From Kocuria rhizophila DC2201 (GTDB lineage Bacteria; Actinomycetota; Actinomycetes; Actinomycetales; Micrococcaceae): 64,000 nt of DNA. A program made the translations under genes and the position numbers. Each line of letters opens with the position of its first letter. Position 1 is the stretch's first letter. Under the pieces are notes generated by a model. It made no database searches. It was not told the DNA's origin and worked only from the letters and a program-made list of their open reading frames with translations. Shown in pieces: positions 6,527 through 63,310 of this stretch. Location: the NCBI RefSeq assembly GCF_000010285.1, contig NC_010617.1, positions 2,356,001 through 2,420,000 of the forward strand, in the 5' to 3' direction.

Positions 6527-6536
6527 ACGACGCCGC
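6527..6536 (+). repeat. ACGACGCCGC motif copy, 9 nt after the serA stop
   Basis: Exact copy of the 10-bp motif that recurs 31 times in this window. It lies between the serA stop and the terminator hairpin. A degenerate partner (GCGGCGGGGT, 8 of 10) falls in the right arm of that hairpin. Confidence 0.6.
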
Positions 6537-6547
6537 CCGCGCACCGC

Positions 6548-6579
6548 GACCCCGTCGCCCGACCCCGGGCGGCGGGGTC
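6548..6579 (+). terminator. Terminator-like hairpin after serA
   Basis: GACCCCGTCGCCCG pairs with CGGGCGGCGGGGTC across a 4-nt loop, with one G-T wobble in 14 pairs. There is no real U-run, which is common for terminators in this GC range. The rest of the 313-bp gap (6519-6831) holds an ACGACGCCGC copy and the next promoter; I see no gene in it. Confidence 0.65.
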
Positions 6580-6785
6580 CGTTCATGGGGGCGCCGCCCT
6601 GCCTCGCAGGCACCTCCCGGCCCTCTCACCCGGCCGCGGCACCCGCGGGCCCACGGGCGGCGGGCGCGGTCGGCCTCCGGCCGGGCCATTGTTCCGAGTG
6701 CACCGCCGCCCGGGTCGGCGCGTTCACAACCTGTCACGAGGGCCTCGCCCGGCGCGCTCCGCGGGGCCCCTCCCCCGTGCGCCCC

Positions 6786-6791
6786 TACGCT
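6786..6791 (+). promoter_or_regulatory. Possible -10 (TACGCT) for the dicarboxylate transporter
   Basis: TACGCT fits TANNNT and would start transcription about 35 nt before the ATG at 6832. No convincing -35 lies 16-18 nt upstream, so this is a weak call. Confidence 0.35.
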
Positions 6792-6831
6792 GGAGGGGAT
6801 CCCCTTTCCCCACGACGATGTGGAGGCGGCC

Positions 6832-8547: not shown

Positions 8548-8587
8548 ACGACGCCGCCGCGCATCTGCGGGTGCCCGGCGGCGTCGT
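8548..8587 (+). terminator. Terminator stem built from an inverted pair of ACGACGCCGC motifs
   Basis: ACGACGCCGC at 8548-8557 and its exact complement GCGGCGTCGT at 8578-8587 form a hairpin starting 19 nt after the transporter stop. The downstream dps gene ends convergently at 8797, so it may serve both strands. The remaining gap up to 8796 is GC-rich and holds no gene I can support. Confidence 0.7.
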
Positions 8588-9601: not shown

Positions 9602-11740
9602 ATGAGCGCCTACCCCCATCTTCTATCCCCGCTGCGCGCGGGCTCCCTGACCCTTCCGCACCGCGTGATCATGGGTTCCATGCACACGGGCCTCGAGGAG
9701 ACCCCGGGCGGTGAGCACGAGCTCGCACGCTTCTACGTGGAGCGCGTGCGCGGCGGCGCGGGGCTGATCGTCACGGGCGGTGTGTCCCCCAACGAGGAGG
9801 GCGCCGCACGCGAGGGCGGGGCCCACCTGAGCGCCGAGGAGCAGCTGCCCCCGCACCGCACCGTCACGGACGCCGTGCACGCGGAGGGCGGGCTGATCGC
9901 CCTGCAGCTGATGCACAGCGGCCGGTACGCGATGCACGCGGACGCCGTGGCGCCCTCGCCCGTGCGCGCCCCGATCAACAGGGTGACCCCGCGCGAGCTG
10001 AGCACCGAGGACGTCGAGCGCACGGTCGAGGACTTCGCGCACGCCGCACTCCTCGCGCAGCGGGCCGGCTACGACGGCGTGGAGATCATGGGCTCGGAGG
10101 GGTACCTGATCAACGAGTTCCTGGTGGAGCACACCAACCGGCGCACGGACCGCTGGGGTGGCTCCCCCGAGGCCCGCCGGCGCTTCGCGGTGGAGGTCGT
10201 GCGCCGGGTGCGCGAGGCCACCGGACCGGAGTTCCTCATCATGTACCGGCTCTCCGCCCTGGACCTGGTCCAGGACGCCCAGGAGTTCGACCAGGTGCTG
10301 GCCCTGGGGCGGGAGGTCGAGGCGGCGGGCGCGTCGGTGATCAACACCGGCATCGGGTGGCACGAGGCCAGGATCCCCACGATCGCCACGAGCGTCCCGC
10401 CCGCGGGCTTCACGTGGGTCAGCCGTGCCCTGCGCGAGCACCTGAGCGTGCCCGTGGCGGCCGTGAACCGCATGAACACCCCCGAGATCGGCGAGGCAGT
10501 GATCGAGCGCGGGGACGCGGACCTCGTGTGCCTCGCCCGCCCGTTCCTCGCGGACCCGCAGTTCGTGGCCAAGGCCCGCGCCGAGCGCCCGGACGAGATC
10601 AACACGTGCATCGCGTGCAACCAGGCGTGCCTGGACCACACGTTCTCCGGCAAGCGGATGTCCTGCCTGGTCAACCCGCGGGCCATGCGCGAGGACGAGC
10701 TGGTCCTGGGCCCCACCCGCACCGCCGAGCGGATCGCCGTGGTGGGCGCCGGCCCCGCGGGCCTGGCCTTCGCGGAGGCGGCCGCCCAGCGGGGGCACCG
10801 CGTGACTGTCTTCGAGGAGCACACCGAGATCGGCGGCCAGTTCCAGCTCGCCCGGCTCATCCCGGGCAAGGAGGACTACGCCCATACCATCCGCTACTTC
10901 CGCACGCGCCTCGCGGAGCTCGGGGTCACTGTGCACACGGGCCGCACCGCCACGGCCGCGGACCTCGACTTCGCGGACCGGGTGGTGCTCGCCACCGGCG
11001 TGAGCCCGCGCGTCCCCGGGATCCCCGGTGAGGACGGTCCCTCGGTGCTCGGCTACAAGGAGGTGCTCGCGGGAGCGCCCGTGGGCGAGCGCGTGGCGAT
11101 CATCGGCGGCGGCGGCATCGGATTCGACGTCGCCCACTTCCTCACGCACGACCCCCACGCGGACTTCTACCGGGAGTGGGGCGTGGACCGCACGCTCGAG
11201 GCGCGGGGCGGGCTGCTGCGCCCCGAACCCGCGGCCCCGCTGCGCCGGGTCACCGTGCTGCAGCGCACCCCGGGCAAGCCGGGCGCGCGGCTGGGCACCA
11301 CCACGGGGTGGATCCACCGCGCCGAGCTGCGCATGGCGGACGTCGAGTTCGTCACGGGCGTGCAGTACCAGCGCATCGACGAGCAGGGCGTGCACGTGCT
11401 CGTCCCGGCGCCCGAGCCCGCCGAACCGCAGGGGGCGGCGGCCTCCCGTGCGTCCGGGGGCACGACGCCGCCGCGTTCCGGTGGCGCGCCCGCCGCCCGC
11501 CACGAGGCCCCCGGCGGGGCGCAGGCCACCGTGGTGGCCGAGGCGCCCGGCCTCGTGGAGCTGCTCGTTCCCGCGGACACCGTGGTGCTGTGCGCGGGGC
11601 AGGAGTCCCGCGCAGAGCTCGCGTCCGAGCTCACCGGGGACCGCCCGGTGCACGTGGTGGGAGGCGCGCACGTGGCCTCGGAGCTCGATGCCAAGCGGGC
11701 CATCAAGGAGGCCGTGGAGCTCGCCGCGTCCCTGCCCTGA
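9602..11740 (+). CDS. fadH: 2,4-dienoyl-CoA reductase-like FMN/FAD/4Fe-4S oxidoreductase (FadH/old yellow enzyme family)
   Basis: The product is 712 residues, about 40 longer than E. coli FadH. The N-terminal TIM barrel binds FMN (GSMHTGLEE, LQLMHSGRYA, GVEIMGSEGYLINEF). A cluster region CIACNQACLDHTF...SCLVNP supplies Cys ligands for a 4Fe-4S centre. The C-terminal half has FAD (VVGAGPAGLAFAEAA) and NADPH (AIIGGGGIGFDVAHF) Rossmann motifs. It should reduce 2,4-dienoyl-CoA made during unsaturated fatty acid oxidation, though the family also covers other enone reductases. Residues about 601-643 are a Pro/Ala/Gly-rich insert absent from typical members; it contains an ACGACGCCGC copy (11462). 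Ribosome site TGGAG precedes ATG 9602. Confidence 0.85.
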   Translation: MSAYPHLLSPLRAGSLTLPHRVIMGSMHTGLEETPGGEHELARFYVERVRGGAGLIVTGGVSPNEEGAAREGGAHLSAEEQLPPHRTVTDAVHAEGGLIALQLMHSGRYAMHADAVAPSPVRAPINRVTPRELSTEDVERTVEDFAHAALLAQRAGYDGVEIMGSEGYLINEFLVEHTNRRTDRWGGSPEARRRFAVEVVRRVREATGPEFLIMYRLSALDLVQDAQEFDQVLALGREVEAAGASVINTGIGWHEARIPTIATSVPPAGFTWVSRALREHLSVPVAAVNRMNTPEIGEAVIERGDADLVCLARPFLADPQFVAKARAERPDEINTCIACNQACLDHTFSGKRMSCLVNPRAMREDELVLGPTRTAERIAVVGAGPAGLAFAEAAAQRGHRVTVFEEHTEIGGQFQLARLIPGKEDYAHTIRYFRTRLAELGVTVHTGRTATAADLDFADRVVLATGVSPRVPGIPGEDGPSVLGYKEVLAGAPVGERVAIIGGGGIGFDVAHFLTHDPHADFYREWGVDRTLEARGGLLRPEPAAPLRRVTVLQRTPGKPGARLGTTTGWIHRAELRMADVEFVTGVQYQRIDEQGVHVLVPAPEPAEPQGAAASRASGGTTPPRSGGAPAARHEAPGGAQATVVAEAPGLVELLVPADTVVLCAGQESRAELASELTGDRPVHVVGGAHVASELDAKRAIKEAVELAASLP

Positions 11741-11752: not shown

Positions 11753-11762
11753 GCGGCGTCGT
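11753..11762 (-). repeat. ACGACGCCGC motif copy, 13 nt after the fadH stop
   Basis: Exact minus-strand copy (GCGGCGTCGT on plus) of the recurrent motif. It lies in the loop of a small AGCGCG/CGCGCT hairpin just past the stop at 11740, probably part of a terminator. Confidence 0.55.
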
Positions 11763-12716: not shown

Positions 12717-12717
12717 C

Positions 12718-13236: not shown

Positions 13237-14820
13237 ATGCCCATCGCCTTCCGCTACGCCGCGCGCTCCGACGTGGGCCGCGTGCGCTCCAAGAACGACG
13301 ACTCCGCCTACGCCGGGCGCTACCTCGCGGTGGTGGCCGACGGCATGGGCGGGCACGTGGGCGGTGACGTGGCCTCCGCGTCCGCGGTGATCGACCTGAC
13401 CCACCTGGACCACGCGGGCCACCGGGGCGAGGCCGAGACCGTGCTCGCGGACGAGATCCAGAACGCGAACCAGAACCTCGCGAAGCTCGTGCAGTCCAAC
13501 CCCCGCCTGGGCGGGATGGGCACCACCGTGACCGCCCTGTTGATCGACGGGGACGAGATCTCCGTGGCCCACATCGGGGACTCCCGCGCCTACCGGCTCT
13601 CCGAGACGGAGGGCTTCCAGCAGGTCACCACGGACCACACCTTCGTGCAGCGCCTGATCGACGAGGGCCGGCTGCAGCCCGAGGAGGCGGAGACCCACCC
13701 CCACAAGAACGTGCTGATGCGCGTGCTCGGGGACGTGGACGCCTCCCCCGAGCTGGAGGTCCGCGTCGTCCGCCCGGCCGTGGGCGAGCGCTGGCTGCTG
13801 TGCTCGGACGGGCTCAACGCCGTGGTCAACGCCCGGACCATCGAGAACGTGATGCGCTCCACCGGGGACCTCAACCAGATCGTGAACTCCCTCGTGGAGC
13901 TCACCCTGGACCGGGGCGCCCCGGACAACGTGACCGTGGTGGTCGTGCAGGTGGACGAGATCCCCCCGGGGGACGAGGCGCACCCCATGACCGGCGAGGG
14001 CCACGGCGCCATCCCGGACGAGTCCCGCACCTCGGACGAGCGGCTGCGCGTGGAGACCGTCGAGGAGCACTGGGACGGCCCCATGGACTCCCCCGTGGCC
14101 GGGGGCGGCGTCGACTACCGTGAACCCGGCCGCCAGGAGCCGCCGGCACCGCCGGAACCCGCGCAGTCCTCGGCCTCCGTGCTGCGCCAGGACCTGGCCG
14201 AGCGCCCCCACCTGCTCGTGGGCGCGGCCGCCAACGCCACCCAGACCGGGCGGATCCCCACCGTCTCGGACTCGGCCATGGCCCGCCGCGCCACCATGCT
14301 CTCCACGTCCACCCTGGACGAGACCACCGATCCCGCCGAGGTCCGCAGCCTGCTGCGGCGCAAGGGCGAGGATCCCGCACCGGCGTCCACGCGGCGTCGT
14401 GCGGTGTGGGTGGCGGGCGCCGTGGTGCTCGCCGTGGCCCTCATGCTGGGCGGCTGGGGAGCCCGCGCCTGGACCTCCTCCCAGTACTACGTGGGCGAGG
14501 ACCAGGGCAGGGTGGCCGTGTACCAGGGCGTCTCCCAGAGCCTCGGGCCCATCTCGCTGAGCGATCTGGACTCCACCACGGACGTGCGCGTGGACTCCCT
14601 GTCCCAGTACGCCCAGGAGCGCGTGCGCGCCACGATTCCGGCGGGCAGCCGGGACGAGGCCGAGAAGATCGTGTCCGAGCTGAAGACCTCCAGCGGGCCC
14701 GGCCCGCACCCCACCGGTCGCGTGACCGTCACGACCCCCACCCCGGACCCCTCGTCCAGCGCGAGCGGCTCAGGCTCCCCGAGCCCCTCCGCGTCCGCCT
14801 CGGGAGGTGGTGACTCGTGA
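13237..14820 (+). CDS. pstP: PstP, membrane-bound PP2C-type Ser/Thr phosphatase
   Basis: The product is 527 residues. The PP2C catalytic domain (about 1-240) shows the metal-binding blocks RSKNDDSAY, VVADGMGGHVGGD, HIGDSRAYRL, LLCSDGLNAVV and GAPDNVTVVVV. A disordered acidic linker precedes a membrane helix near residues 390-412 (AVWVAGAVVLAVALMLGGWG), then an extracellular domain and a Ser/Pro-rich tail. It removes phosphates placed by PknA and PknB. It starts 3 nt after fhaB and overlaps the next gene by 4 nt. An ACGACGCCGC copy (14391) lies in the juxtamembrane linker. Confidence 0.95.
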   Translation: MPIAFRYAARSDVGRVRSKNDDSAYAGRYLAVVADGMGGHVGGDVASASAVIDLTHLDHAGHRGEAETVLADEIQNANQNLAKLVQSNPRLGGMGTTVTALLIDGDEISVAHIGDSRAYRLSETEGFQQVTTDHTFVQRLIDEGRLQPEEAETHPHKNVLMRVLGDVDASPELEVRVVRPAVGERWLLCSDGLNAVVNARTIENVMRSTGDLNQIVNSLVELTLDRGAPDNVTVVVVQVDEIPPGDEAHPMTGEGHGAIPDESRTSDERLRVETVEEHWDGPMDSPVAGGGVDYREPGRQEPPAPPEPAQSSASVLRQDLAERPHLLVGAAANATQTGRIPTVSDSAMARRATMLSTSTLDETTDPAEVRSLLRRKGEDPAPASTRRRAVWVAGAVVLAVALMLGGWGARAWTSSQYYVGEDQGRVAVYQGVSQSLGPISLSDLDSTTDVRVDSLSQYAQERVRATIPAGSRDEAEKIVSELKTSSGPGPHPTGRVTVTTPTPDPSSSASGSGSPSPSASASGGGDS

Positions 14821-16595
14821 GCAGGCCCGCCGCGAACCCCGCCGCCGCACCCGGTCACGAGCGCACCGTGCGCCCCCGGCCGCGCCGGGTCACCGAGCTC
14901 CTGCTGCTGCTGCTCGCCCTGTGCATCGGGGTGGGCGCGAACATCCTGGTGGACCCCGAGCAGCTGGACAAGGATCCCGGGCACATCATCGTGAGCGGCT
15001 CCGTGCTCGGCGTGGGCGCCCTGCTGGTGCACGTGGTGCTGTGGATCCGCGCGCGCTACGCGGACCCCTACCTGCTGCCCCTGGCGGTGGCCCTCAACGG
15101 GCTGGGCCTGGCGATGATCCACCGCATCGACCTCTCCACCGGCCAGACCGCCGCCAACACCCAGGTGGTGTGGACCGCCGTGGCCATGGCCGTGTGCTGC
15201 GTGGTGCTGTGGTTCCTCAAGGACCACCGGCGGCTGCGCAACGTCACCTACACCATGCTGCTGCTCTCCGCGGTGCTGCTGGTGCTGCCCATGGTCCCGG
15301 GCCTCGGTGTGGAGATCAACGGCGCGCGGCTGTGGATCTCGATCGCCGGGCGCACCTTCCAGCCCGGTGAGATCGCCAAGATCACGCTGGCCGTGTTCTT
15401 CGCGGGCTACCTCTCCACCAACCGGGACCTCATCCTGCTGGCCGGGCGCAAGATCGGCCCCGTGCGGCTGCCCCGCTTCAAGGACGTCGCGCCCATGCTT
15501 GCCGCGTGGGTCATCGCGATCGGCGTGCTGGTGCTGCAGAAGGACATGGGCACCGCCATCATGTTCTTCGGCCTGTTCCTGGCCATGATCTACCTGGCCA
15601 CCGGTCGCCTCGGCTGGATCGTGCTGGGCGTGGTGCTGATGCTCGTGGGCGGCTTCGCGGCCAGCCGCGTGTTCTCCCACGTGAGCCTGCGCCTGGACGC
15701 GTGGCTCGACGCGTTCGACCCCGAGGTCTACAACCGCTCCCCCGGCGGCTCCGCGCAGATCGTGCAGGGGCTCTTCGGCCTCGCCTCGGGCGGGCTGTTC
15801 GGCCAGGGCCTGGGCCAGGGCCGCCCGGACCTGGTCTCCTACTCCAACTCGGACATGATCATCACGGCCTTCGGTGAGGAGCTCGGGCTCATCGGGCTCG
15901 GCGCGATCCTGGTGATGTTCCTGCTCTTCGCCACGCGCGGGCTGCGCGCGGCCCTGGGCACCCGGGACGCGTTCGGCAAGCTGCTCGCGGCCGGGCTGTC
16001 CGCGCTCATGGTGCTGCAGCTGTTCATCGTGGTGGGCGGCGTGACCCGCCTGCTGCCGCTGACCGGTCTGACCACGCCGTTCATGTCCGCCGGCGGCTCG
16101 TCCCTGCTGTCCAACTGGATCATCGTGGCCATCCTGCTGGCCATCTCCCACAGCGCCCGCCGCCCGGTGGCCACCGGCCCCGCCACGGACGAGGACCTCG
16201 CCTCCTTCGAACGACGCCGCCGCGCCCGCGAGGAGCAGCGCGCCCAGGACCGCACCCCGGACCGGGACAACGGCCCCGCCGTGGCGGACGCCGACGCTCC
16301 CACGGAGCTCACGCCAGCCACCTCTCTGACCTCCTCCGGCGTGCCCGAGCACGCCTCCCCGCTGGAGTCCTCGGACACTGGCTCGGCCACCGAGGTGATG
16401 TCCCGCATCACCCACCGCTCCGGCGCGCCGGGTGCGGGGGAACGCTCCGGTGAGCGTTCCGCGGGCCGGTCCGGCGCGCAGGACGGCGCGCGTGGAGCGG
16501 GCACCGGGGCGGCGTCGTCGTCCGGGGACGAGTCCCGTGGGAGCAGCACGAAGCCGGCCGAGGGCGCGGCCGAGCAGGAAGGGGGGACCCCGTGA
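14817..16595 (+). CDS. rodA: RodA/FtsW-type SEDS peptidoglycan polymerase
   Basis: The product is 592 residues. The SEDS core has about ten membrane helices over residues 20-455, with family blocks GARLWI-S-AGRTFQPGEIAKI, VLQKDMGTAIM (the catalytic Asp region), RSPGGSAQIVQGLFGLASGGLFG and PLTGLTTPFMSAGGSSLLSNW. It polymerises lipid II together with the class B PBP encoded next. Name and context follow the mycobacterial rodA-pbpA pair. A charged, Ala/Ser-rich cytoplasmic tail of about 135 residues (after 455) is longer than usual and carries two ACGACGCCGC copies (16211, 16509). GTG 14817 overlaps the pstP stop. Confidence 0.93.
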   Translation: MSRPAANPAAAPGHERTVRPRPRRVTELLLLLLALCIGVGANILVDPEQLDKDPGHIIVSGSVLGVGALLVHVVLWIRARYADPYLLPLAVALNGLGLAMIHRIDLSTGQTAANTQVVWTAVAMAVCCVVLWFLKDHRRLRNVTYTMLLLSAVLLVLPMVPGLGVEINGARLWISIAGRTFQPGEIAKITLAVFFAGYLSTNRDLILLAGRKIGPVRLPRFKDVAPMLAAWVIAIGVLVLQKDMGTAIMFFGLFLAMIYLATGRLGWIVLGVVLMLVGGFAASRVFSHVSLRLDAWLDAFDPEVYNRSPGGSAQIVQGLFGLASGGLFGQGLGQGRPDLVSYSNSDMIITAFGEELGLIGLGAILVMFLLFATRGLRAALGTRDAFGKLLAAGLSALMVLQLFIVVGGVTRLLPLTGLTTPFMSAGGSSLLSNWIIVAILLAISHSARRPVATGPATDEDLASFERRRRAREEQRAQDRTPDRDNGPAVADADAPTELTPATSLTSSGVPEHASPLESSDTGSATEVMSRITHRSGAPGAGERSGERSAGRSGAQDGARGAGTGAASSSGDESRGSSTKPAEGAAEQEGGTP

Positions 16596-19772: not shown

Positions 19773-21713
19773 ATGGGGTCGCCTCAGCTCCCGGAGCTGG
19801 TCAACGAGCGCTACGAGGTCGGTGAGGTCATCGGCCGCGGTGGCATGGCCACGGTGCACGTGGGTCAGGACGTGCGGCTGGGGCGCCGGGTGGCCATCAA
19901 GATCCTGCGCCCCGAGCTCGCGGCGGACGAGTCCTTCCACGAGCGCTTCCAGCGCGAGGCCCACGCGGTCGCGTCCCTGAACCACCACTCGATCGTGGCC
20001 ATCTACGACACCGGTGAGATCCGGCCTCAGGGCCCGGACGGTGTGCTGCGGCCCTACATCGTCATGGAGTACGTCCCGGGGCAGACGCTGCGGGAGCTCA
20101 TCCACGGACCGGGCGTCACGCCCCACGAAGCCGTGGAGTACATGCTCGGCATCCTGGACGCGCTGTCCTTCAGCCACCGCGCGGGGATCGTGCACCGGGA
20201 CATCAAGCCCGCGAACGTCAAGGTCACCCCGGACGGCGGCGTCAAGGTCATGGACTTCGGCATCGCGCGCGCCGTGGAGGACACCCAGGCCGCGCTCACG
20301 CAGTCCCAGGCCGTGCTCGGCACCGCGCAGTACCTGTCCCCCGAGCAGGCCCGCGGGGCCGCGGTGGACCCCCGCTCGGACCTCTACTCGGCGGCGTGCG
20401 TGCTGTTCGAGATGCTCACGGGGCGCGCGCCGTTCGTGGGCGAGTCCTCCGTGGCGATCGCCGCGCAGCACGTGCGGGACGCGCCGCCCGCGCCGTCGGC
20501 CCTGAACCCGCAGCTGCCGCCCGCCGTGGACCGCTTCATGGAGCGGGCGCTGGCCAAGAACCCGCAGGACCGCTTCGCGGACGCCGGGCAGATGCGCCGC
20601 GCCCTGCGCGAGCTCGAGGCGCAGCTGTCCTCGGACCTGGGTGCCACCCAGCCGATCGGCACCGCCACCGCGGTGGACTCCCACACCAAGACCCTGCCCG
20701 CCGTGGGCACGGGCGCCCCTGCCGCGGCCGTCACCGCCGCCGGACGCAGCGAGGACACGGAGACCACCGAGACCTCCCCGGTCCAGCCCGGCCCCTTCGA
20801 GCCGGACGACGACGACGCCGCCGCCCCCGAGCCCGCCACCGCAGCCCCCTCGCGGGGTCGCCGCGGCTGGGTGATCGCACTGGCGCTGGTACTGCTGCTC
20901 TCGCTGCTGGGTGTGGGCACGGTGCTGGGAGTGCAGTGGTGGCAGGGCTCGCAGGTGGAGCAGGTGGCGCGCGTGAGCATCCCCCAGGTGGTGGGCATGG
21001 ACAGCACCACCGCGGAGAACACGCTGCGGGACGCCGGGCTGAATCCCACCTTCACCAAGGAGCACAGCGACAGCGTGCCCGACAAGCACGTGATCCGCAT
21101 GGATCCCGCCGCCGGCACCGAGGTGGACCGCAACGCCACGGTGTCCGTGGTGGTCTCCGAGGGCCCGGCCACGGTCACGGTCCCCGAGGACATCGTGGGC
21201 CAGTCCCTCGAGTACGCGCGGGAGTCCATCCAGCACGCGGGACTCACGGTGGGCCCGGTCAGCACGGTCAACAGCGCCACGGTGCCCGCCAACGCGGTGA
21301 TCTCCGCGGACCCGGCACCCGGGAGCTCGGTGGCCAGGGCCAGCGCGGTGAAGCTTCAGGTGTCCACGGGCAAGGTCACGGTCCCGGATGTCGTGGGCCG
21401 CAGCCGCGCGGACGCGGAGCGGGCCCTGCGGGCGGACGACGTCCGGCTCAACGCCGCCGTGGAGATCCGCGAGACGGAGGACGCCGAGACCGGCACGGTG
21501 TTGGAGCAGTCCGCCCCCGCGGGGTCCTCGGTGAGCCAGGGCTCCACGATCACCATCACGGTGGCCAGGAAGACGGCGCCTTCCCCCACTCCCACGCCGT
21601 CACGGACCCCGGAGGAGACCACGGAGCCGAGCGCTCCGGCGGAGACGGCCACCGCCACGCCGGAGCCCCGGCCCACGGCAGGCGCCTCGAAGACGCGCGG
21701 GGACCACGGCTGA
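19773..21713 (+). CDS. pknB: PknB-type transmembrane Ser/Thr kinase with three PASTA domains
   Basis: The product is 646 residues. Kinase motifs are clear: VIGRGGMATVHVG, VAIKIL, HRDIKPANV, DFGIARAVED, SPEQARG. A membrane helix lies near 367-389. The outside part has three PASTA repeats (about 401-466, 468-533, 534-600) and a Thr/Pro-rich tail; M. tuberculosis PknB has four. PASTA domains sense muropeptides or lipid II and regulate the kinase. ATG 19773 follows pknA by 5 nt. An ACGACGCCGC copy (20812) encodes part of an acidic linker just before the membrane helix. It is the last gene of the operon. Confidence 0.95.
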   Translation: MGSPQLPELVNERYEVGEVIGRGGMATVHVGQDVRLGRRVAIKILRPELAADESFHERFQREAHAVASLNHHSIVAIYDTGEIRPQGPDGVLRPYIVMEYVPGQTLRELIHGPGVTPHEAVEYMLGILDALSFSHRAGIVHRDIKPANVKVTPDGGVKVMDFGIARAVEDTQAALTQSQAVLGTAQYLSPEQARGAAVDPRSDLYSAACVLFEMLTGRAPFVGESSVAIAAQHVRDAPPAPSALNPQLPPAVDRFMERALAKNPQDRFADAGQMRRALRELEAQLSSDLGATQPIGTATAVDSHTKTLPAVGTGAPAAAVTAAGRSEDTETTETSPVQPGPFEPDDDDAAAPEPATAAPSRGRRGWVIALALVLLLSLLGVGTVLGVQWWQGSQVEQVARVSIPQVVGMDSTTAENTLRDAGLNPTFTKEHSDSVPDKHVIRMDPAAGTEVDRNATVSVVVSEGPATVTVPEDIVGQSLEYARESIQHAGLTVGPVSTVNSATVPANAVISADPAPGSSVARASAVKLQVSTGKVTVPDVVGRSRADAERALRADDVRLNAAVEIRETEDAETGTVLEQSAPAGSSVSQGSTITITVARKTAPSPTPTPSRTPEETTEPSAPAETATATPEPRPTAGASKTRGDHG

Positions 21714-28140: not shown

Positions 28141-28956
28141 TCAGACGAGGCGGGAGAGGAAGGCGCCCAGAGCGGCGTCGTACTCCGCGGGGTTCTCCAT
28201 GTTGGGTGTGTGCCCGCTCGCAGGGACCACCGCGAGCTCACCGTGGCGCAGCAGCTCGCGCATGGCCTGGCCCGCGCCGTTGTCGAACGCGTCCGAGTCC
28301 CCCACGATCACGAGCGCGGGCTTCTCCCACGCGCGCAGCGTCTCGGTGAAGTCGTTGCGTTCGGCGCGCCCGCGCATGGCCGCGGTGGAGCCCTCGAGCG
28401 GGGCGGTCCGGATCATCTCGCGCACGCACTCGGCGACCTCCGGCAGCCGCTCCACGTTCTCCTCCGCGATCATCTTGGACAGCACGTTCTGCGCGTAGGT
28501 CCCCATGCCGTCCCGCATGATCCCGTCCGCCGCCACATGACGACGACGCCGCCCCGCCGCGTCCTCGGACGTGGGCACCGTGTCGTTGATGATCAGCGCG
28601 CCCACCCGTTCGGGGTACGACGCGGCGATCTGCATGGCCACCTGCCCGGACATCGAGAAGCCCAACAGGATCACGGTCTCCAGGACGAGCTCGTCCAGCA
28701 GCGCGACGATGTCCGCGGCGAACTCCTCGGTGTACACGATCCCCTCGGTGACCTGGGACTCGCCGAACCCGCGCAGGTCCGGGGCGATCACGCGCCAAGC
28801 CTGCTCCGTGAGAGTCGCGACCTGCCCGTCCCACATGGAGCGGTCGTACGCGTGGCCGTGCAGCAGCACCACGGGCTCGCCCCGGCCCTCGTCCGTGTAG
28901 GCCAGCTCGGTGTCGTTGACGTGGGCGGTGTGCGTGATGAATGCCGATCGGCTCAT
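28141..28956 (-). CDS. Alpha/beta-fold hydrolase
   Basis: The product is 271 residues. Family marks are the HG oxyanion segment VVLLHGHAYDRSMWDGQ, DLRGFGES, the nucleophile elbow LLGFSMSGQVAM (Ser near residue 100), the acid Asp in VIVGDSDAFDNG and the final His in ASGHTPNMENP. This is the pattern of carboxylesterases, haloperoxidase-like and MhpC-like hydrolases; substrate unknown. The frame is open much further upstream but that part overlaps the ABC permease gene in another frame; ATG 28956 gives the family-like N-terminus. No ribosome site is obvious. An ACGACGCCGC copy lies close to its stop (28172) and another at 28543. Confidence 0.88.
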   Translation of the reverse strand: MSRSAFITHTAHVNDTELAYTDEGRGEPVVLLHGHAYDRSMWDGQVATLTEQAWRVIAPDLRGFGESQVTEGIVYTEEFAADIVALLDELVLETVILLGFSMSGQVAMQIAASYPERVGALIINDTVPTSEDAAGRRRRHVAADGIMRDGMGTYAQNVLSKMIAEENVERLPEVAECVREMIRTAPLEGSTAAMRGRAERNDFTETLRAWEKPALVIVGDSDAFDNGAGQAMRELLRHGELAVVPASGHTPNMENPAEYDAALGAFLSRLV

Positions 28957-41660: not shown

Positions 41661-44099
41661 ATGACCGTCACGAACCCCGCCACCCTGCCCGCCGCCACGA
41701 TCCTGGGCTATCCGCGCATCGGCCCGGACCGCGAGCTCAAGCGTGCGCTCGAAGCCCACTGGAAGGATCCCGCCCGGCACCCCGCGAGCACCGTGGTGGA
41801 CACGCTCGGCGCCCTGCGCGAACGCACCACCCTGCGGCTGCGGGAGCTCGGGCTCGGCGCCGAGCACGCCATCCCGTCCGAGGGCTTCGCCGTGGACCAC
41901 GTGCTGGACACGGCCCTGGCCCTCGGCGCGGTCCCGGCCCGCTTCACTGCGGACGGCTACTCCCCCGCCGCCCCGGACACCCCCGAGGGCATCGGCCTGC
42001 TCACCGCGCTGTCCCGGGGCACGGACCGGCTGGAGCCGCTGGAGATGACCAAGTGGTTCGACACCAACTACCACTACTACGTCCCGGAGATCGGCCCGGA
42101 CACCCCCCTCAGCGCGCACCCGGAGAGCCTCGTGGCCCGCTACCTGGACACCCTCCGGCGCACCGGGGTGCGGACCCGCCCCGTGCTCGTGGGTCCGGTG
42201 ACCCTGCTGCTGCTCTCCCGCCCGGAGACCACCGACGACGCCCCCGTGGATCCGCTGGGCCGCCTGGAGGACGTGGTGGGTCTCTACGTGCGGATCCTCT
42301 CGGAGCTCGCCGCGGCCGGTGTGCAGTGGGTGCAGCTGGACGAGCCCGCTCTCGCCGCGGACGGTTGGGCGGTGGAGCGCACCGAGATCGTGGCCGCCGT
42401 GGAGTCCGCCTACCGCCGGCTCACGTTCCCGGCGGACCGCCCCGCCGCACTCGTGACCGTGGGCTACGGGGATGCCGGTGGGGACGCCCTGCTGGCCCTG
42501 GCCCGTACGGATGCGGAGGCCCTGGCCGTGGACCTGGACCGCGGGGACGTCCCCGGTGCCGAGGCGCTGCGGGCGTGGGGCGAGCGCCCGGTCGTGGCCG
42601 GCGTCGTGGGCGGTCGCACCGTGTGGCGCACGGACCTGGCGGGCGCCACGGACACCCTGGACCGGTTGCGCGCCGCGGCCCGCGGCCCCGTGGCGGTGGG
42701 CACGGCCACGCCGCTGCTGCACGTCCCGCACGACGTCACCCAGGAGACCGGGCTGGACCCGGACGTGCGCAGCTGGGTGGCGTTCGCTGACCAGAAGGTC
42801 ACCGAGGTGGTCGAGCTCGCGCGCGGCGTCGAGCACGGCTGGGAGGCGATCACGCAGACCTTGGAGACGGACGCCCGGATCCGCGCGGCCCGCGCCGCCC
42901 ACCCGGCCACGCACCGGCCCGAGGTCCGCGAGCGCACCGCCGCGGTGCGCGGCGAGGACCGCGTGCGGGCTTCCGCCGTCGAGCGCCGGGCGGCGCAGCA
43001 CGAGCGGCTGCGGCTGCCGCTGCTGCCCACCACCACCATCGGCTCGTTCCCGCAGACCACCGAGATCCGTGCGACCCGCGCTGCCCACCGCGCCGGGCGC
43101 CTGGACGACGCCGCCTACACGGAGGCGATCCGGCGGGAGATCGCCCGCACGGTGCGCGCGCAGGAGGAGCTGGGCCTGGACGTGCTGGTGCACGGCGAGC
43201 CGGAGCGCAACGACATGGTGCAGTACTTCGCGGAGGCCCTGGACGGCTTCGCGACCACGCGTCACGGCTGGGTGCAGTCCTACGGCTCGCGGTGCACGCG
43301 CCCGTCCATCCTGTTCGGGGACGTCTCCCGGCCCGCGCCCATCACCGTGGACTGGACCGGGTACGCGGCGTCGCTCACGGACCGTCCTGTGAAGGGCATG
43401 CTCACGGGTCCGGTGACGATCCTCGCGTGGTCCTTCGTGCGGGACGACGCCCCCGCGGCGGAGGTCGCGGACCAGGTGGCGCTGGCTCTGCGGGACGAGA
43501 TCACGGACCTCGAGGCCGCCGGGACCGCCGTGGTCCAGGTGGACGAGCCAGCGCTGCGGGAGCTGCTGCCGCTGCGCGAGGCGGACCGCCCGGCGTACCT
43601 GGAGTGGTCCGTGGGGTCGTTCCGGCTGGCCACCGGAGCCGCCGCCACGGACACGCAGATCCACACGCACCTGTGCTACTCGGAGTTTGAGACGGTGCTG
43701 GACGCGATCGAGGGCCTGGACGCGGACGTCACCACCCTGGAGGCCTCCCGCTCCGGCTCGGGCATCGTGGACGGGCTCGCCGCCGCGGACTTCCCGCGGG
43801 ACGTGGGTCCCGGCGTGTGGGACATCCACTCCCCGCGCGTGCCCACGTTCGAGGAGGTCGCCGGGCGCGTGCGCCACGCTGCGCACGCCATCGGTGCCGA
43901 CCGCGTGTGGGTCAACCCGGACTGCGGTCTGAAGACCCGCGCCTGGCCCGAGACGCGGGCCGCCCTGGACCGTCTGGTGGCCGCCGCGGTCACGGTGCGC
44001 GGCGAGCTCGCCCGCGCGGACCGGGACGGCCAGGGCAACGACGCCGCCCGGGCCGTCCCGCCCGGCACCGCCCCCGCGGGGGCCGCGGCCACGCGCTGA
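41661..44099 (+). CDS. metE: Cobalamin-independent methionine synthase
   Basis: The product is 812 residues, slightly longer than E. coli MetE because of an Ala/Pro-rich C-terminus. It transfers the methyl of 5-methyl-THF-polyglutamate to homocysteine. The N-terminal barrel has GYPRIGPDRELKRALE and MTKWFDTNYHYYVPE; the C-terminal barrel has TTTIGSFPQT, VLVHGEPERNDMVQYF and zinc ligands in IHTHLCYSEF and VNPDCGLKTR. AAGGAGAG precedes the ATG. The 162-bp spacer after metF has no gene and a short GCCGCG/CGCGGC hairpin. ACGACGCCGC copies lie at 43105 and 44038. Confidence 0.97.
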   Translation: MTVTNPATLPAATILGYPRIGPDRELKRALEAHWKDPARHPASTVVDTLGALRERTTLRLRELGLGAEHAIPSEGFAVDHVLDTALALGAVPARFTADGYSPAAPDTPEGIGLLTALSRGTDRLEPLEMTKWFDTNYHYYVPEIGPDTPLSAHPESLVARYLDTLRRTGVRTRPVLVGPVTLLLLSRPETTDDAPVDPLGRLEDVVGLYVRILSELAAAGVQWVQLDEPALAADGWAVERTEIVAAVESAYRRLTFPADRPAALVTVGYGDAGGDALLALARTDAEALAVDLDRGDVPGAEALRAWGERPVVAGVVGGRTVWRTDLAGATDTLDRLRAAARGPVAVGTATPLLHVPHDVTQETGLDPDVRSWVAFADQKVTEVVELARGVEHGWEAITQTLETDARIRAARAAHPATHRPEVRERTAAVRGEDRVRASAVERRAAQHERLRLPLLPTTTIGSFPQTTEIRATRAAHRAGRLDDAAYTEAIRREIARTVRAQEELGLDVLVHGEPERNDMVQYFAEALDGFATTRHGWVQSYGSRCTRPSILFGDVSRPAPITVDWTGYAASLTDRPVKGMLTGPVTILAWSFVRDDAPAAEVADQVALALRDEITDLEAAGTAVVQVDEPALRELLPLREADRPAYLEWSVGSFRLATGAAATDTQIHTHLCYSEFETVLDAIEGLDADVTTLEASRSGSGIVDGLAAADFPRDVGPGVWDIHSPRVPTFEEVAGRVRHAAHAIGADRVWVNPDCGLKTRAWPETRAALDRLVAAAVTVRGELARADRDGQGNDAARAVPPGTAPAGAAATR

Positions 44100-45624: not shown

Positions 45625-46869
45625 ATGACACGCTCCACCGACACCCTGCGCGGCCTCGCCACACGGGCGATCCACGACGGCCAGCACCCCGATCCGACCA
45701 CGGGCGCCGTGGTCCCGCCGATCTACCAGACCTCCACGTTCGTGCAGGACGGCGTGAACCAGTTCCGCGAGGGCGGCCACGAGTACAGCCGCGGATCCAA
45801 CCCCACGCGCAACGGCTTCGAGGAGCAGCTGGCCTCGCTCGAGCACGGGACACGCGCGTTCGCGTTCTCCTCCGGCATGGCCGCGGAGGACGCCCTCCTG
45901 CGCGCAGTCCTGCAGCCGGGTGACCACGTGGTGCTCGCCGCGGACGTCTACGGCGGCACGTTCCGCCTGGTCGACCGGGTGCTCTCGGGCTGGGGGATCT
46001 CGCACAGCATCGTGCCCTCGGCCTCCGCGGACGACGCCGCCCGCACCGTCCGCCCCGGCAGCACCGCCGTGCTGTGGCTGGAAACCCCGTCCAACCCGCT
46101 GCTGCGGGTGGCGGACATCGCTGCGTGGGCGCGAGTGGCCGACGACGCCGGCGCGCTGCTCGTGGTGGACAACACCTTCGCGACCCCCGCCCTCCAGAAC
46201 CCGCTCGCGCTGGGTGCCCACGCCGTGGCCCACTCCACCACCAAGTACATCGGCGGCCACTCGGACGTGCTCGGCGGAGCCGTGGTGGTGGGGGACGCGC
46301 ACTGGCGCGGCGAGACTCTCGCGGAACGGCTCGCGTTCCAGCAGTTCGCGTGCGGAGCCGTGGCCGGGCCCTTCGACGCGTTCCTGGCCGCCCGCGGACT
46401 CAAGACGTTGCCGCTGCGCATGGAGCGCCACTGTTCCAACGCTCTGGAGGTCGCGCACTTCCTGCGGTCCCGAGATGACGTGGTGGAGGTCCACTACCCC
46501 GGCCTGGAGGATCACCCGCAGCACGACCTCGCGGCGCAGACCCTGCACGGCGGCTTCGGGGGCATCATCTCCTTCCGGCCCGCCGGCGGGGTCCGAGCAG
46601 CGCACGAGTTCGTGGCCGCCTCAGAGCTCTACAACCTGTCCGTGAGCCTGGGCGGGGTGGAGTCCCTGGCGTGCGTGCCGCACAGCATGACGCACGCCTC
46701 GCGGGTCGGCACCGCGTACGAGGTCCCCGAGGACCTGGTGCGGTTGTCCGTGGGGTTGGAGAGCATCGACGATCACCTGGCGGATCTGGACCGGGCTCTC
46801 GGGGCCGCATCGCGGGTGGGGCGGGGGGATGTGCCCTCTGCCGGCGGTGCCCGCCAGCAGGCGGCATAG
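45625..46869 (+). CDS. metB: Cystathionine gamma-synthase/lyase family enzyme (MetB type)
   Basis: The product is 414 residues of the same PLP superfamily. Marks are LATRAIHDGQHPDPTTGAVVPPIYQTSTFVQ, YSRGSNPTRNGFEEQLASLE, AFSSGMAAEDALL, VVDNTFATPALQNPL and the PLP Lys in VAHSTTKYIGGHSDVLGGAV. It joins O-succinyl- or O-acetylhomoserine with cysteine (synthase), or cleaves cystathionine (lyase, MetC/CTH); sequence inspection does not separate the two. Context with metF, metE and metY favours synthase. AGGAG is seven bases before the ATG. ACGACGCCGC copy at 46031. Confidence 0.87.
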   Translation: MTRSTDTLRGLATRAIHDGQHPDPTTGAVVPPIYQTSTFVQDGVNQFREGGHEYSRGSNPTRNGFEEQLASLEHGTRAFAFSSGMAAEDALLRAVLQPGDHVVLAADVYGGTFRLVDRVLSGWGISHSIVPSASADDAARTVRPGSTAVLWLETPSNPLLRVADIAAWARVADDAGALLVVDNTFATPALQNPLALGAHAVAHSTTKYIGGHSDVLGGAVVVGDAHWRGETLAERLAFQQFACGAVAGPFDAFLAARGLKTLPLRMERHCSNALEVAHFLRSRDDVVEVHYPGLEDHPQHDLAAQTLHGGFGGIISFRPAGGVRAAHEFVAASELYNLSVSLGGVESLACVPHSMTHASRVGTAYEVPEDLVRLSVGLESIDDHLADLDRALGAASRVGRGDVPSAGGARQQAA

Positions 46870-58007: not shown

Positions 58008-59294
58008 TCAGCCGCGCAGCGCCTCGTAGACGGAGCGTGCCGTGCGCTCGGCGACGTCCGCGGGGTTCCCGCCACGGGGCACGAGCACCACGATCGGGGC
58101 ATCGCCGCCCACCCACACCGTGTCGGTCCGGTTCCCGCCCACGACGCCGCCGCGCGGGTTCGCGAGCGCAGGCTCGCCGTGCTCCCCCGGTCCCGCCGCA
58201 GACCCGTCCGGGTCCGCGCCGACGTCACGCCCGCGTGCGGTGTCCACCCCGCCCCCGACCGGCGCACCGGCCGAGGACCCGGGCGGGTCAGCCTCCGGGG
58301 TCGCGGCATCGTCCTCGGCCGGGGCGTACAGCGCGGACGGCGTCCCCCTCAACAGCTGCGGGCCCGATGGGGCAGCTTCCTGAGTCGCCGCGTCGTCGTC
58401 GGCGGAAACGTCAGGAGAGGACGGGGTCCCGCCCGAGGACGACGGGCCCGACGGGGCAGCCCCCGGGGGCGCTGCGGCGTCACCGGCCGAGGCGTCCGAC
58501 GAGGACGAGGTTCCTGCCGGGGCCGTGGCCCCGGCAGGGGACCAGGATCCGGGTGCGCCGGCACCCGACGACGCGGCGTCGTTCGCGGTCGGGCGACCCG
58601 CCGGGGACGGGGAGCCGTGAGCGTACGGGGGCGCCGCGGCGTCGTCGAGCTCGAGGGAGACCTGTGCGGACGAGAACGAGAGGTCCACCGGCGAGCCGGA
58701 CGGGGCAGTCTCCTGGTGGATCACGCCGAACAGCGCACACAGCCACACGACCCGCCTGCTCAGCGCAGCCGCGAGCTGCTCCCCCTGCCCCGGCCTCGGA
58801 CCGCGCAGCCACGTGCGCAGGAACGCGTTGTGCACCGCCACGGTGGCCGCGGGCAGCGCCACTGCCGTGACGCGGCGGTCCGGGGAGTCGGGCAGGGCGG
58901 CACGCAGGAAGGCATGGAAGACCCGCTCGTAGCGCGAGGACATGGCGATCTCACGGTCCCGCAGGGACTCGACGCGCTGCAGGAGGTCGTGCCGGGCGAA
59001 CGCGCGCTGCGCGTGGTCCAGGTTGTGGCGGAACACGAGCTGCGCGCCCTCCACCAGGCCGTCCTGCGGGGACAGTCCCGGGCGCTGCAGCAGGGCCTCC
59101 AGCCGCTCCAGGGTGGCCGCGTGGTCCGCGAAGACGACGTCCTCCTTGCTGCCGTACTTGCGGAAGAACGTGGCCCGGCTGATGCCTGCGGCCTGGGCGA
59201 GCTGCTCCACGGTGGTCTCCATGTACCCGTGGTCCGCGAGCATGCGGATGGAGCGCGTGACCACGTCCTCGGTGACGGCGCTGGCCTCACTCAT
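58008..59294 (-). CDS. TetR-family regulator of fatty acid oxidation with a long repetitive C-terminal linker
   Basis: The product is 428 residues, twice the normal TetR length. The DNA-binding part is standard (TVEQLAQAAGISRATFFRKYGSKEDV, about 25-60) and the ligand-type helical domain runs to about 205. Residues about 210-385 are Ala/Pro/Ser/Gly/Asp-rich and include three tandem degenerate repeats of about 28 residues (265-348; compare DAAAPPGAAPSGPSSSGGTP, DAATQEAAPSGPQLLRGTP). The last 45 residues look folded again (TDTVWVGGDAPIVVLVPRGG). Three ACGACGCCGC copies (58141, 58573, 58636) lie in the added part. The matched operator in the fadB promoter suggests control of beta-oxidation. Confidence 0.85.
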   Translation of the reverse strand: MSEASAVTEDVVTRSIRMLADHGYMETTVEQLAQAAGISRATFFRKYGSKEDVVFADHAATLERLEALLQRPGLSPQDGLVEGAQLVFRHNLDHAQRAFARHDLLQRVESLRDREIAMSSRYERVFHAFLRAALPDSPDRRVTAVALPAATVAVHNAFLRTWLRGPRPGQGEQLAAALSRRVVWLCALFGVIHQETAPSGSPVDLSFSSAQVSLELDDAAAPPYAHGSPSPAGRPTANDAASSGAGAPGSWSPAGATAPAGTSSSSDASAGDAAAPPGAAPSGPSSSGGTPSSPDVSADDDAATQEAAPSGPQLLRGTPSALYAPAEDDAATPEADPPGSSAGAPVGGGVDTARGRDVGADPDGSAAGPGEHGEPALANPRGGVVGGNRTDTVWVGGDAPIVVLVPRGGNPADVAERTARSVYEALRG

Positions 59295-61202: not shown

Positions 61203-61219
61203 TCTTCTGACCCCGATGC

Positions 61220-61272
61220 ACACGTGGTGACAGGGAGGCGCGTGAAGTCCGCGCCTCCCTGTCACCACGTGT
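61220..61272 (+). repeat. Perfect 23-bp stem-loop between oppA and oppB
   Basis: ACACGTGGTGAC-AGGGAGGCGCG (61220-61242) and its exact complement (61250-61272) enclose a 7-base loop. It starts 18 nt after the oppA stop and ends 18 nt before oppB; no U-run follows. It is the longest perfect stem I found in the window, suited to 3'-end protection of the oppA message or partial termination. Confidence 0.85.
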
Positions 61273-61290
61273 CATAGAGAGGAGCCCCTC

Positions 61291-62217
61291 TTGGCCTGGT
61301 ATCTGGTCAAAAGACTGCTGCAGCTGATCCCCGTCTTCTTCGGCGCCACGCTGCTGGTCTACTTCCTGGTCTTCATGACCCCCGGTGATCCGCTCGACGC
61401 GCTGTGCGGGGACAAGGGCTGCACGCCCGGTGTCGCCGCCGCGCTGACCGCGCAGTACCACCTCAACGACCCGTTCTTCGTGCAGTACTTCAGCTACATC
61501 GGAGGTCTGCTCACCGGCGACCTCGGCGTGAACTTCTCCGGACGCGAGATCAGCGACGTGCTCGCCGGCGCGTTCCCCGCGACCGTCCGGCTCGCGATCA
61601 TCGCCCTGGTGTTCGAGGCGATCTTCGGCATCACCTTCGGCCTGTACGCCGGGCTGAAGAAGGGCGGCTGGTTCGACTCCACCGTGCTAGTGGTCTCCCT
61701 GATCGTCATCGCCGTGCCGATCTTCGTGCTCGGCTTCGTGATGCAGTACTTCGTGGGCGTGAAGTGGGGGCTGGCCAAGCCGACCGTCTCCGGCGCCGCG
61801 GACTGGAGCGACCTGATCCTGCCCGGCATCGTGCTGGGCCTGGTCTCCTTCGCCCAGGTGCTGCGCCTGACCCGCACGGCCGTGGCCGAGAACGCCAGCG
61901 CGGACTACGTGCGCACCGCCACCGCCAAGGGCCTGACCCGCGGCCGCGTGATCCGGGTGCACATCCTGCGCAACTCGATGATCCCCGTGGCCACCTTCCT
62001 GGGCATGGACCTGGGTGCACTGATGGGCGGCGCGATCGTCACCGAGGGCATCTTCAACGTCCCCGGCATCGGCAACCAGCTCTACAAGGCACTCACGCTC
62101 GGGGACGCACCCATGGTGGTCTCCGTGGTGTCCGTGATGGTGATCATCTTCTGCGTGGCCAATCTGCTGGTTGACCTCCTCTACGCCTGGCTCGATCCGA
62201 GGATCCGTTATGCCTGA
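61291..62217 (+). CDS. oppB: Oligopeptide ABC transporter permease OppB
   Basis: The product is 308 residues with six helices. It starts AWYLVKRLLQLIPVFFGATLLVYFLVFMTPGDP, the OppB/DppB hallmark, and has the EAA loop ENASADYVRTATAKGLTRGRVIRVHILRNSMIPV that contacts the ATPases. The start is TTG at 61291, with GAGGAG seven bases upstream; no better start matches the family N-terminus. It overlaps oppC by 8 nt. Confidence 0.95.
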   Translation: MAWYLVKRLLQLIPVFFGATLLVYFLVFMTPGDPLDALCGDKGCTPGVAAALTAQYHLNDPFFVQYFSYIGGLLTGDLGVNFSGREISDVLAGAFPATVRLAIIALVFEAIFGITFGLYAGLKKGGWFDSTVLVVSLIVIAVPIFVLGFVMQYFVGVKWGLAKPTVSGAADWSDLILPGIVLGLVSFAQVLRLTRTAVAENASADYVRTATAKGLTRGRVIRVHILRNSMIPVATFLGMDLGALMGGAIVTEGIFNVPGIGNQLYKALTLGDAPMVVSVVSVMVIIFCVANLLVDLLYAWLDPRIRYA

Positions 62218-63310
62218 GAACAACTTCGAGAACAACGACGCCGCGGGCCGGGACCTGAACCCCGAGGCCCGCTCCCACGAGGCCGCCGTGCGCGAGGTCC
62301 GGGAGACCGCCGACACCCCGGCCGGCTCCCACCAGAAGGACCTCGGCGGGGTGAGCACCGGGATCATGATGGAGCACTTCGTCGCGGACGTGGCCCAGAC
62401 CCCGGTCTCGGCCACCGACTCCCGCTCCGCCGAGGGCGCTCCCGTGAGCCTGTGGCGCGACGCGTGGCGGCAGCTGCGCAAGAAGCCCACGTTCATCATC
62501 GCGGCCCTGCTGATCGTGCTGGTGATCGTGGTGGCCCTCTTCCCGCAGCTGTTCTGGACCCAGGACCCCTCCGCGGCGTCCTCGCAGTGCCTGCTGGAGA
62601 ACTCCAACGGCAAGGCCTCCGCGGGCCACCCCATGGGCTTCACCGCCCAGGGCTGCGACGTGTACTCCCGCGTGATCGCCGGGACCCGGGCCTCGCTCAT
62701 GGTGGGTCTGTTCACCACCATCGGTGTGGTGGTCATCGGCGGGATCATCGGTGCGCTGGCCGGCTACTTCGGCGGCTGGATCGACGGCGTTCTCGCGCGC
62801 CTGGGCGACATCTTCTTCGCGCTGCCCCTGATCCTGGGTGCCCTGGTGGTCATGCAGCTGCCGTTCTTCAAGGCCAACCGCGGGGTGTGGACCCTGGTGG
62901 TGGTGCTGGTGCTGTTCGGCTGGCCGCAGATCGCGCGCATCATGCGCGGCGCGGTGGTGGAGGTGCGCAACGCGGACTACGTGGTCAGTGCCCGCTCGCT
63001 GGGCGTGTCTTCCTTCGGGATCCTGATGCGCCACATCATCCCCAACGCGATGGCGCCGGTGATCGTGATCGCCACGATCTCGCTGGGCACGTTCATCGTG
63101 GCCGAGTCCACTCTGTCCTACCTCGGCATCGGCCTGCCGCCCAGCATGATGAGCTGGGGCAACGACATCTCGGACGCGAAGGACGCCTTCCGCTCGAACC
63201 CGATGCCCGTATTTTGGCCCGGCCTGGCGCTGTCGCTGACCGTCCTGAGCTTCATCATGCTCGGTGACGCGCTGCGCGACGCGCTGGACCCGAAGGCCCG
63301 GAAGAAGTGA
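62210..63310 (+). CDS. oppC: Oligopeptide ABC transporter permease OppC
   Basis: The product is 366 residues. A polar N-terminal tail of about 80 residues precedes SLWRDAWRQLRKKPTFIIAALLI, the usual OppC start, then six helices and the EAA loop VEVRNADYVVSARSLGVSSFGILMRHIIPNAMAPV. The tail is longer than in E. coli and begins with an ACGACGCCGC copy (62235). ATG 62210 has GAGGA upstream and fits the overlap; a longer frame to 62171 is rejected. Confidence 0.94.
   Translation: MPENNFENNDAAGRDLNPEARSHEAAVREVRETADTPAGSHQKDLGGVSTGIMMEHFVADVAQTPVSATDSRSAEGAPVSLWRDAWRQLRKKPTFIIAALLIVLVIVVALFPQLFWTQDPSAASSQCLLENSNGKASAGHPMGFTAQGCDVYSRVIAGTRASLMVGLFTTIGVVVIGGIIGALAGYFGGWIDGVLARLGDIFFALPLILGALVVMQLPFFKANRGVWTLVVVLVLFGWPQIARIMRGAVVEVRNADYVVSARSLGVSSFGILMRHIIPNAMAPVIVIATISLGTFIVAESTLSYLGIGLPPSMMSWGNDISDAKDAFRSNPMPVFWPGLALSLTVLSFIMLGDALRDALDPKARKK

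Follow-up and report, generated by a model that had tools for sequence, protein, structure and literature searches.

The chromosome of Kocuria rhizophila DC2201 (G000) carries a 10-bp repeat, ACGACGCCGC, in 1124 copies (557 forward and 567 reverse) on a single contig of 2,697,540 bp, while the reversed pattern, taken as a control, occurs only 43 times (20 forward and 23 reverse). We find this strong, clade-specific repeat to be real, and its genomic layout resembles that of DNA uptake sequences (DUS) in abundance, strand balance, permissive and post-stop sites, hairpin pairs, coding excess, and clade conservation. Judging from the sequence data, ACGACGCCGC is probably, though by no means certainly, a candidate DNA uptake signal for natural transformation that belongs to one clade of Kocuria. 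We infer a receptor, preferential uptake of DNA, and the transformability of Kocuria.

Abundance and genomic layout of the repeat

The preliminary description covered 64 kb of this chromosome (positions 2356001 to 2420000 of the contig), a stretch which we refer to as the window. All coordinates and strands of the 31 exact copies reported there were reproduced, and the expectation of about one copy from base composition agrees with dinucleotide-keeping shuffles of the window (mean 1.07 copies and at most 4 in 100 shuffles). The strand ratio of 20:11 in the window is not significant (p = 0.15). Our sample of the genome comprised 464 kb of 2.70 Mb, made up of the window and 20 stretches of 20 kb each at even intervals; besides this sample, two 20-kb tad stretches and the small loci L042 and L089 were read. 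In these 464 kb, ACGACGCCGC occurs 206 times, compared with 15.7 copies predicted by an order-4 Markov model, which is the top excess among all 10-mers. It also ranks first among the 2520 permutations of its own letters, both overall (206 copies versus a median of 4) and in intergenic DNA (81 versus a median of 0). None of its single-base neighbors exceeds 69 copies, and the commonest of them, ACGACGACGC, is itself raised. A frequency no higher than that of equally composed 10-mers or codon-shuffled controls had been named beforehand as the outcome that would speak against the motif; both controls are far exceeded. Copies are scarcer in the five bins below 64% GC (0.4 per 5 kb) than at 68 to 74% GC (2.1 to 2.3 per 5 kb), a comparison in which the low bins include rRNA and GC content is a confounder. 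The rRNA operon of the window (46936 to 52249) is devoid of ACGACGCCGC, and a low-GC island (55 to 63% GC) lies at L003:5001-15000, corresponding to 275 to 285 kb of the G000 chromosome.

Genes were called with our own codon-model script and not with a standard annotator (362 genes in the 464 kb). On these calls, 109 of the 206 copies are coding, 96 are intergenic, and 1 is on an edge, giving densities of 0.29 per kb in genes and 1.59 per kb between them. Intergenic copies number 82, while 0.62 are expected; counts of 81 to 82 cover intervals between called genes that measure at least 15 or 20 bp and at most 1500 bp, and they exclude 14 to 15 copies. Convergent gaps are the richest (2.39 copies per kb), followed by codirectional (1.55) and divergent ones (1.13). 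The post-stop enrichment described for the window, whose loss elsewhere had been the second adverse outcome named beforehand, holds in the 464 kb, of which the window makes up only 64 kb: with bins summed, 43 copies lie within 60 nt past a stop codon (3.3 per kb) and 22 lie farther away (1.0 per kb). Neighboring copies less than 100 bp apart tend to face each other as hairpin arms (15 of 26 pairs, with 2 of 26 in the reverse arrangement), while the 159 wider pairs comprise 40 in hairpin and 52 in reverse orientation.

The coding copies are likewise in excess, at 109 versus a mean of 37.2 in 200 synonymous shuffles (standard deviation, 4.5; largest value, 51). The preliminary description had argued that the motif is not a codon effect, as it is read as DDAA, TTPP, and RRR in different genes; such frames were indeed seen, and five of the six frame and strand classes lie above every synonymous shuffle. 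Fifty-nine of the 109 copies are in the DDAA frame (31.8 in shuffles) and 7 in the RRR frame, which requires the CGA codon (0.02 in shuffles), and the three reverse-strand classes hold 19, 11, and 10 copies versus 1.6, 3.0, and 0.09, respectively. Only the TTP frame is not above the shuffles (3 versus 0.67, with shuffles reaching 4). The motif is on the strand of the gene in 69 cases and on the opposite strand in 40. No bias toward gene ends was found among the coding copies, the deciles holding 7 to 15 of the 109.

Distribution in Kocuria and other genera of the family

Twelve of 27 Kocuria genomes contain 499 to 1124 copies of ACGACGCCGC and the other fifteen contain 44 to 237. In a GyrB tree, drawn before two of the twelve motif-rich genomes had been counted, these twelve form one clade (support 99/99). 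As judged by 100% matches of the GyrB region, this clade includes K. rhizophila TA68, K. tytonicola, K. marina SO9-6, K. salsicia, and K. atrinae, while K. dechangensis, K. polaris, and K. palustris are not part of it; motif-poor close sisters of the rich clade are available for comparison. The GyrB region of G000 has 94.5% similarity to that of K. rhizophila TA68. Strain DC2201, a derivative of ATCC 9341, is placed in a K. pseudorhizophila clade in passages of a 2025 paper (PMC12500396). It belongs to an ordinary reference lineage of laboratory work.

Seven motif-rich relatives, pooled, have 53 coding copies versus 14.7 expected and 19 intergenic copies versus 0.23, although only regions homologous to the window were sampled in them, so that they are not independent of the window or of each other. 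Another rich relative, G259, has 14 coding copies versus 3.1 and 9 intergenic copies versus 0.07, and its extended form GACGCCGCTC occurs 8 times in intergenic DNA and never in genes. The four sampled motif-poor Kocuria genomes have no intergenic copy at all, and their coding copies are few (1 versus 1.2 expected in G120, 2 versus 1.0 in G251, 4 versus 3.3 in G036, and 1 versus 0.2 in G134). The peptide [DNHY]DAA occurs 5.35 times per 10,000 residues in G000, 4.43 times in the pooled rich relatives, and 3.29 times in G259, compared with 0 in G120 and 0.45 in G251; it also reaches 2.52 in G036 and 3.32 in G166, both without an excess of the motif, and 3.08 in G027. The raised frequency of DDAA-type peptides is therefore suggestive but mixed.

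Among 271 genomes from other genera of the family, the highest counts of ACGACGCCGC are 602 (G253), 420 (G027), and 391 (G135). G027 (59% GC) has 24 coding copies versus 4.6 expected and 11 intergenic copies versus 0.12, as well as 28 copies of AGTACGACG, of which about 1.6 are expected. Its 49 intergenic ACGACG cores continue with [CA]CGC, like those of G000, and have an A at position −3 in 73% of cases (background, 23%) within an upstream sequence richer in A and T, a flank that recalls the uptake signal sequences (USS) of Haemophilus. Sites of both forms are concentrated within 30 nt past stops (3.62 per kb, versus 0.24 beyond 150 nt), and all four close pairs of opposite orientation are hairpins, with none in reverse. 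The G027 version may be a dialect and not a separate motif.

Weaker signals were seen elsewhere. G253 has 22 coding copies versus 4.9 and 4 intergenic copies versus 0.06, while neither G187 nor G045 shows a raised count of any of the four motif variants tested. G166 lacks intergenic ACGACGCCGC and has 4 copies each of ACGACGACGC and ACGACGGCGC (0.1 and 0.2 expected), possibly a weak variant of the motif. In 376 genomes of the order, the degenerate form ACGACGMCGC is most frequent in G000 (1549 copies), followed by G321 (1310 in 3.8 Mb) and G504 (1262 in 4.7 Mb). The latter two, used as codon usage controls, have small intergenic counts (3 in 6.5 kb versus 0.19 in G504; 2 in 7.5 kb versus 0.37 in G321), so that other members of the order may carry a weak signal. 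CGAGGTGGCA of G233 was considered as an alternative dialect and dropped, since it sits in clustered intergenic arrays. In G233 (L033 to L037), these mostly intergenic arrays are built around CGAGGTGGCANTTTTGTGCG, e.g., at L037:13599-13923, L036:14459-14678, and L035:8077-8196; 100 kb contain 21 copies of CGAGGTGGCA, with 13 intergenic and 1 coding within the called gaps and genes.

A candidate uptake signal and its alternatives

Kocuria and Neisseria belong to different phyla, and the likeness to a known uptake system is one of genomic layout. Neisseria DUS are 10 to 12 bp long, number up to thousands of copies, occupy permissive or intergenic sites, form terminator-linked inverted pairs, and have dialects following phylogeny, according to the relevant parts of a published study (PMC3630211). 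ACGACGCCGC shares the length, the copy number, the permissive and intergenic sites, the inverted pairs, and a dialect-like version; it differs in sequence, and PilT has no match in Kocuria. The copy number also resembles that of the USS of Haemophilus and other Pasteurellaceae, as does the favored orientation in frame, one USS orientation being commoner in reading frames in the portion of the report concerned (PMC2346458). Unlike ACGACGCCGC, Pasteurellaceae USS are reported to have a gene-end bias, and their sequence is different.

The machinery for such a system is present as far as the genes themselves tell. G000 encodes ComEA, with SLBB and HHH_3 domains, and ComEC, with Competence and metallo-beta-lactamase domains. 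T2SSE ATPases belong to its two tad loci, which between them also contain TadE, Tad, and DUF4244 pilin-like proteins; the genome thus appears to possess a Tad/Flp-ComEA-ComEC competence gene set. Micrococcus luteus likewise has comEA and comEC homologues; for that species, part of a study reports no comG cluster and a requirement of Flp pili for transformation (PMC6370729). No uptake sequence of M. luteus was found by term searches of papers on this species. With the PilT model (TIGR01420, E-value of 1e-20), matches were obtained in 2 of 295 family genomes, neither of them among the 24 Kocuria genomes drawn; in G000, the search scored 6 of 17 first-look candidates. Assignment of ACGACGCCGC to the type IVa pilus/ComP system of Neisseria would thus not be supported, PilT having no match and no search for ComP having been made. 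The two PilT-family matches are in G115:C56 and G228:C1 (L050 to L053), one of them above the curated cutoff. Beside the first tad locus of G000, L054:1-7000 (1000 to 1007 kb) contains mobile-looking genes (an AAA_25 ATPase; the others were judged by eye), and the first ACGACGCCGC copy of that stretch is at 13302. G120:C1 has ComEC family matches at 129181 and 163086, 34 kb apart; the gene may be split, or the first match, a weak one of 30 residues, may be due to chance.

In the mechanism that we propose, the competence machinery would include a surface receptor, in all likelihood a Tad/Flp minor pilin or ComEA, that binds double-stranded DNA carrying the motif, and the pilus and ComEA/ComEC would import this DNA. 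Recombination into the chromosome would spread and keep copies of the motif, and because of this the motif would accumulate where the sequence is free to change. It is about an even question whether this Gram-positive phylum has evolved an uptake signal of its own, separate in origin from those of Neisseria and Haemophilus, that has dialects in more than a single genus of the family and is read by a Tad/Flp-type pilus or ComEA instead of a type IVa minor pilin. No earlier report of ACGACGCCGC or of an uptake sequence in Kocuria or actinobacteria was found in the literature searched, which leaves most subscription journals outside. In the part consulted of a 2025 paper, uptake is described as sequence independent in nearly all competent species apart from Neisseria and Haemophilus (PMC12040237). 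If true, a further independent system in Actinobacteria would bear on why uptake signals evolve and which proteins read them, and would pose the question of whether Tad pili can be sequence selective; hundreds of coding sites in the proteome, as extrapolated from the 109 coding copies in 464 kb, would have been shaped by the motif.

Several observations weigh against an uptake role. The spacing of ACGACGCCGC is random-like (dispersion index, 1.1), with 4 to 17 copies in each of the 20 stretches of 20 kb. Conservation of single sites is modest: all ten bases are kept in 29 of 74 site-genome pairs from the seven rich relatives, versus an expectation of 19.0 for 10-mers matched in composition and frame class, for sites chosen in G000 and alignable sequence only. 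Several of the lost sites are one or two bases away from the motif, and this turnover fits a motif kept at the population level while single sites come and go. Motif-poor Kocuria genomes also rise above the reversed control genome-wide, G288 the most (237 versus 34) and G120 less so (112 versus 65); codon usage covers this excess in the four sampled poor genomes, G288 being outside that sample. ComEC and TadE are each found in 24 of 25 Kocuria genomes, motif-poor ones included, so that the machinery does not separate rich from poor genomes. No pilus or competence gene matching motif richness was found among ComEC, TadE, and two further Tad pilins, which occur in rich and poor Kocuria alike. 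Since motif-poor Kocuria also have them, ComEC and the Tad genes leave the difference between rich and poor genomes unexplained; a change in receptor specificity would explain it. The two further pilins share at least 70% identity with those of G000 within the rich clade and no more than 62% beyond it, a split that also follows phylogeny. Finally, the competence set of K. rhizophila strain 301 is described as incomplete or highly divergent in passages of one report (PMC13388538), which also lists pilB and pilT in this strain; these may be Tad-type ATPases.

The preliminary description had offered uptake, chromosome architecture, and a terminator-linked repeat as readings; uptake fits best, and architecture of the kind known from FtsK-orienting polar sequences (KOPS) and a terminator alone fared less well. 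An intracellular motif for chromosome organization or recombination, similar to Chi, KOPS, or the target of a nucleoid protein and bound by a clade-specific protein, is unlikely. KOPS (recognized by FtsK) and Chi (RecBCD) are short, very frequent chromosomal words, and ACGACGCCGC is another; its high density throughout the sampled chromosome and its clade-specific distribution would suit such a role. However, KOPS and most Chi sites show a replication-orientation bias, while the leading-to-lagging ratio of ACGACGCCGC in the 464 kb is 97:109 (p = 0.44, with dnaA at position 1 and the terminus assumed to be half-way). The check for strand bias relative to origin and terminus thus revealed none, a replichore-biased chromosome mark was rejected, and KOPS-like architecture is disfavored for this reason. 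Nor are post-stop clustering and hairpin-oriented pairs expected of such a motif. A nucleoid protein without strand preference is a possible binder.

It is rather doubtful that the repeat is an element of transcription termination, with the motif and its inverse favored as the arms of terminator stems. The post-stop enrichment and the hairpin pairs suit this explanation, as do the inner inverted partners (at least 8 of 10 matches) at 21 of 45 post-stop copies, the exclusively intergenic GACGCCGCTC of G259, and the more stable folding of 60-nt stretches at 93 intergenic copies (−28.4 kcal/mol, versus −23.0 for 300 random intergenic ones). It is insufficient by itself, because 24 of the 45 post-stop copies have no partner and the coding copies, which lie on both strands, are in excess (109 versus 37). 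Termination and uptake are not exclusive, paired DUS of Neisseriaceae doing likewise in the pertinent part of the study cited above (PMC3630211).

A mutational, gene conversion, or selfish drive, or recognition by some other enzyme, spreading the 10-mer without an uptake role, is improbable. Any drive would fit the clade restriction and the site turnover observed between relatives, but no trace of a mobile element in the form of conserved flanks was seen: outside the 10 bp, 174 intergenic ACGACG cores of G000 hold at most 0.19 bits per position, and by this measure no conserved sequence of the repetitive extragenic palindrome or miniature inverted-repeat transposable element type was found beyond the short core. 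We know of no enzyme that spreads such a 10-mer.

The GC-rich composition of the genome and its codon usage, with DDAA written as GAC GAC GCC GCN, are hardly credible as the source and were rejected as the whole explanation. In their favor, the DDAA frame accounts for 59 of the 109 coding copies, with 31.8 already reached in shuffles, and ACGACGMCGC is also common in other high-GC members of the order, such as G321 and G504. However, synonymous shuffles explain only 37 of the 109, intergenic copies far exceed expectation (82 versus 0.62), ACGACGCCGC ranks first among its permutations, and the equally GC-rich but motif-poor sisters G120 and G251 are at expectation in genes with no intergenic copy.

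Copies in the window and neighboring features

By our gene calls, 22 of the 31 window copies are coding, being read as DDAA/NDAA/HDAA/YDAA, RRR, TTPP, AAS, or GGV, and 9 are intergenic. Eight had been reported as intergenic; the class stood and the count did not, the copy at 30916 overlapping an open reading frame (ORF) that was not called. Likewise, the post-stop position of intergenic copies was borne out with other figures, five of the nine lying 8 to 18 nt past a stop instead of six sites at 9 to 19 nt. The three inverted pairs are as described, those at 8548/8578 and 29047/29078 being perfect and that at 31212 matching in 9 of 10 positions. The copies of ACGACGCCGC are as follows (CDS, coding sequence).

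6527..6536, plus: intergenic, 8 nt past stop; 8/10 inverted partner 42 nt away
8548..8557, plus: intergenic, 18 nt past stop; left arm of perfect inverted pair
8578..8587, minus: intergenic; right arm of perfect inverted pair with 8548
11462..11471, plus: CDS, TTPP
11753..11762, minus: intergenic, 12 nt past stop
14391..14400, minus: CDS, opposite strand to gene
16211..16220, plus: CDS, RRR with CGA
16509..16518, minus: CDS, opposite strand, AASS
20812..20821, plus: CDS, DDAA
23005..23014, plus: CDS, HDAA
28172..28181, minus: CDS, YDAA; intact in 4/4 aligned relatives
28543..28552, plus: CDS, opposite strand; intact in 4/4 aligned relatives
29047..29056, plus: intergenic; left arm of perfect inverted pair
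29078..29087, minus: intergenic, 9 nt past stop; right arm of perfect inverted pair with 29047
30916..30925, plus: intergenic by our gene calls; overlapping ORF exists
31212..31221, plus: intergenic; 9/10 inverted partner 30 nt away
32169..32178, plus: CDS, opposite strand
33885..33894, plus: CDS, opposite strand, GGV
34022..34031, minus: CDS, RRR
36647..36656, plus: CDS, opposite strand; intact in 5/7 aligned relatives
40279..40288, plus: intergenic, 16 nt past stop
40976..40985, minus: CDS, opposite strand
43105..43114, plus: CDS, DDAA
44038..44047, plus: CDS, NDAA
44390..44399, minus: CDS, opposite strand, AASS
46031..46040, plus: CDS, DDAA
53771..53780, plus: CDS, opposite strand, GGV
58141..58150, plus: CDS, opposite strand, GGV
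58573..58582, minus: CDS, NDAA
58636..58645, minus: CDS, DDAA
62235..62244, plus: CDS, NDAA

At 39510 to 39540, the window also contains the palindrome CGACGCCGCGGCGTCG, in which two motif cores overlap tail to tail; it has 3 exact copies in the 464 kb, and 25 to 27 bp of this segment match other places in several relatives. A SAM-IV riboswitch (40342 to 40458) lies directly downstream of the copy at 40279.

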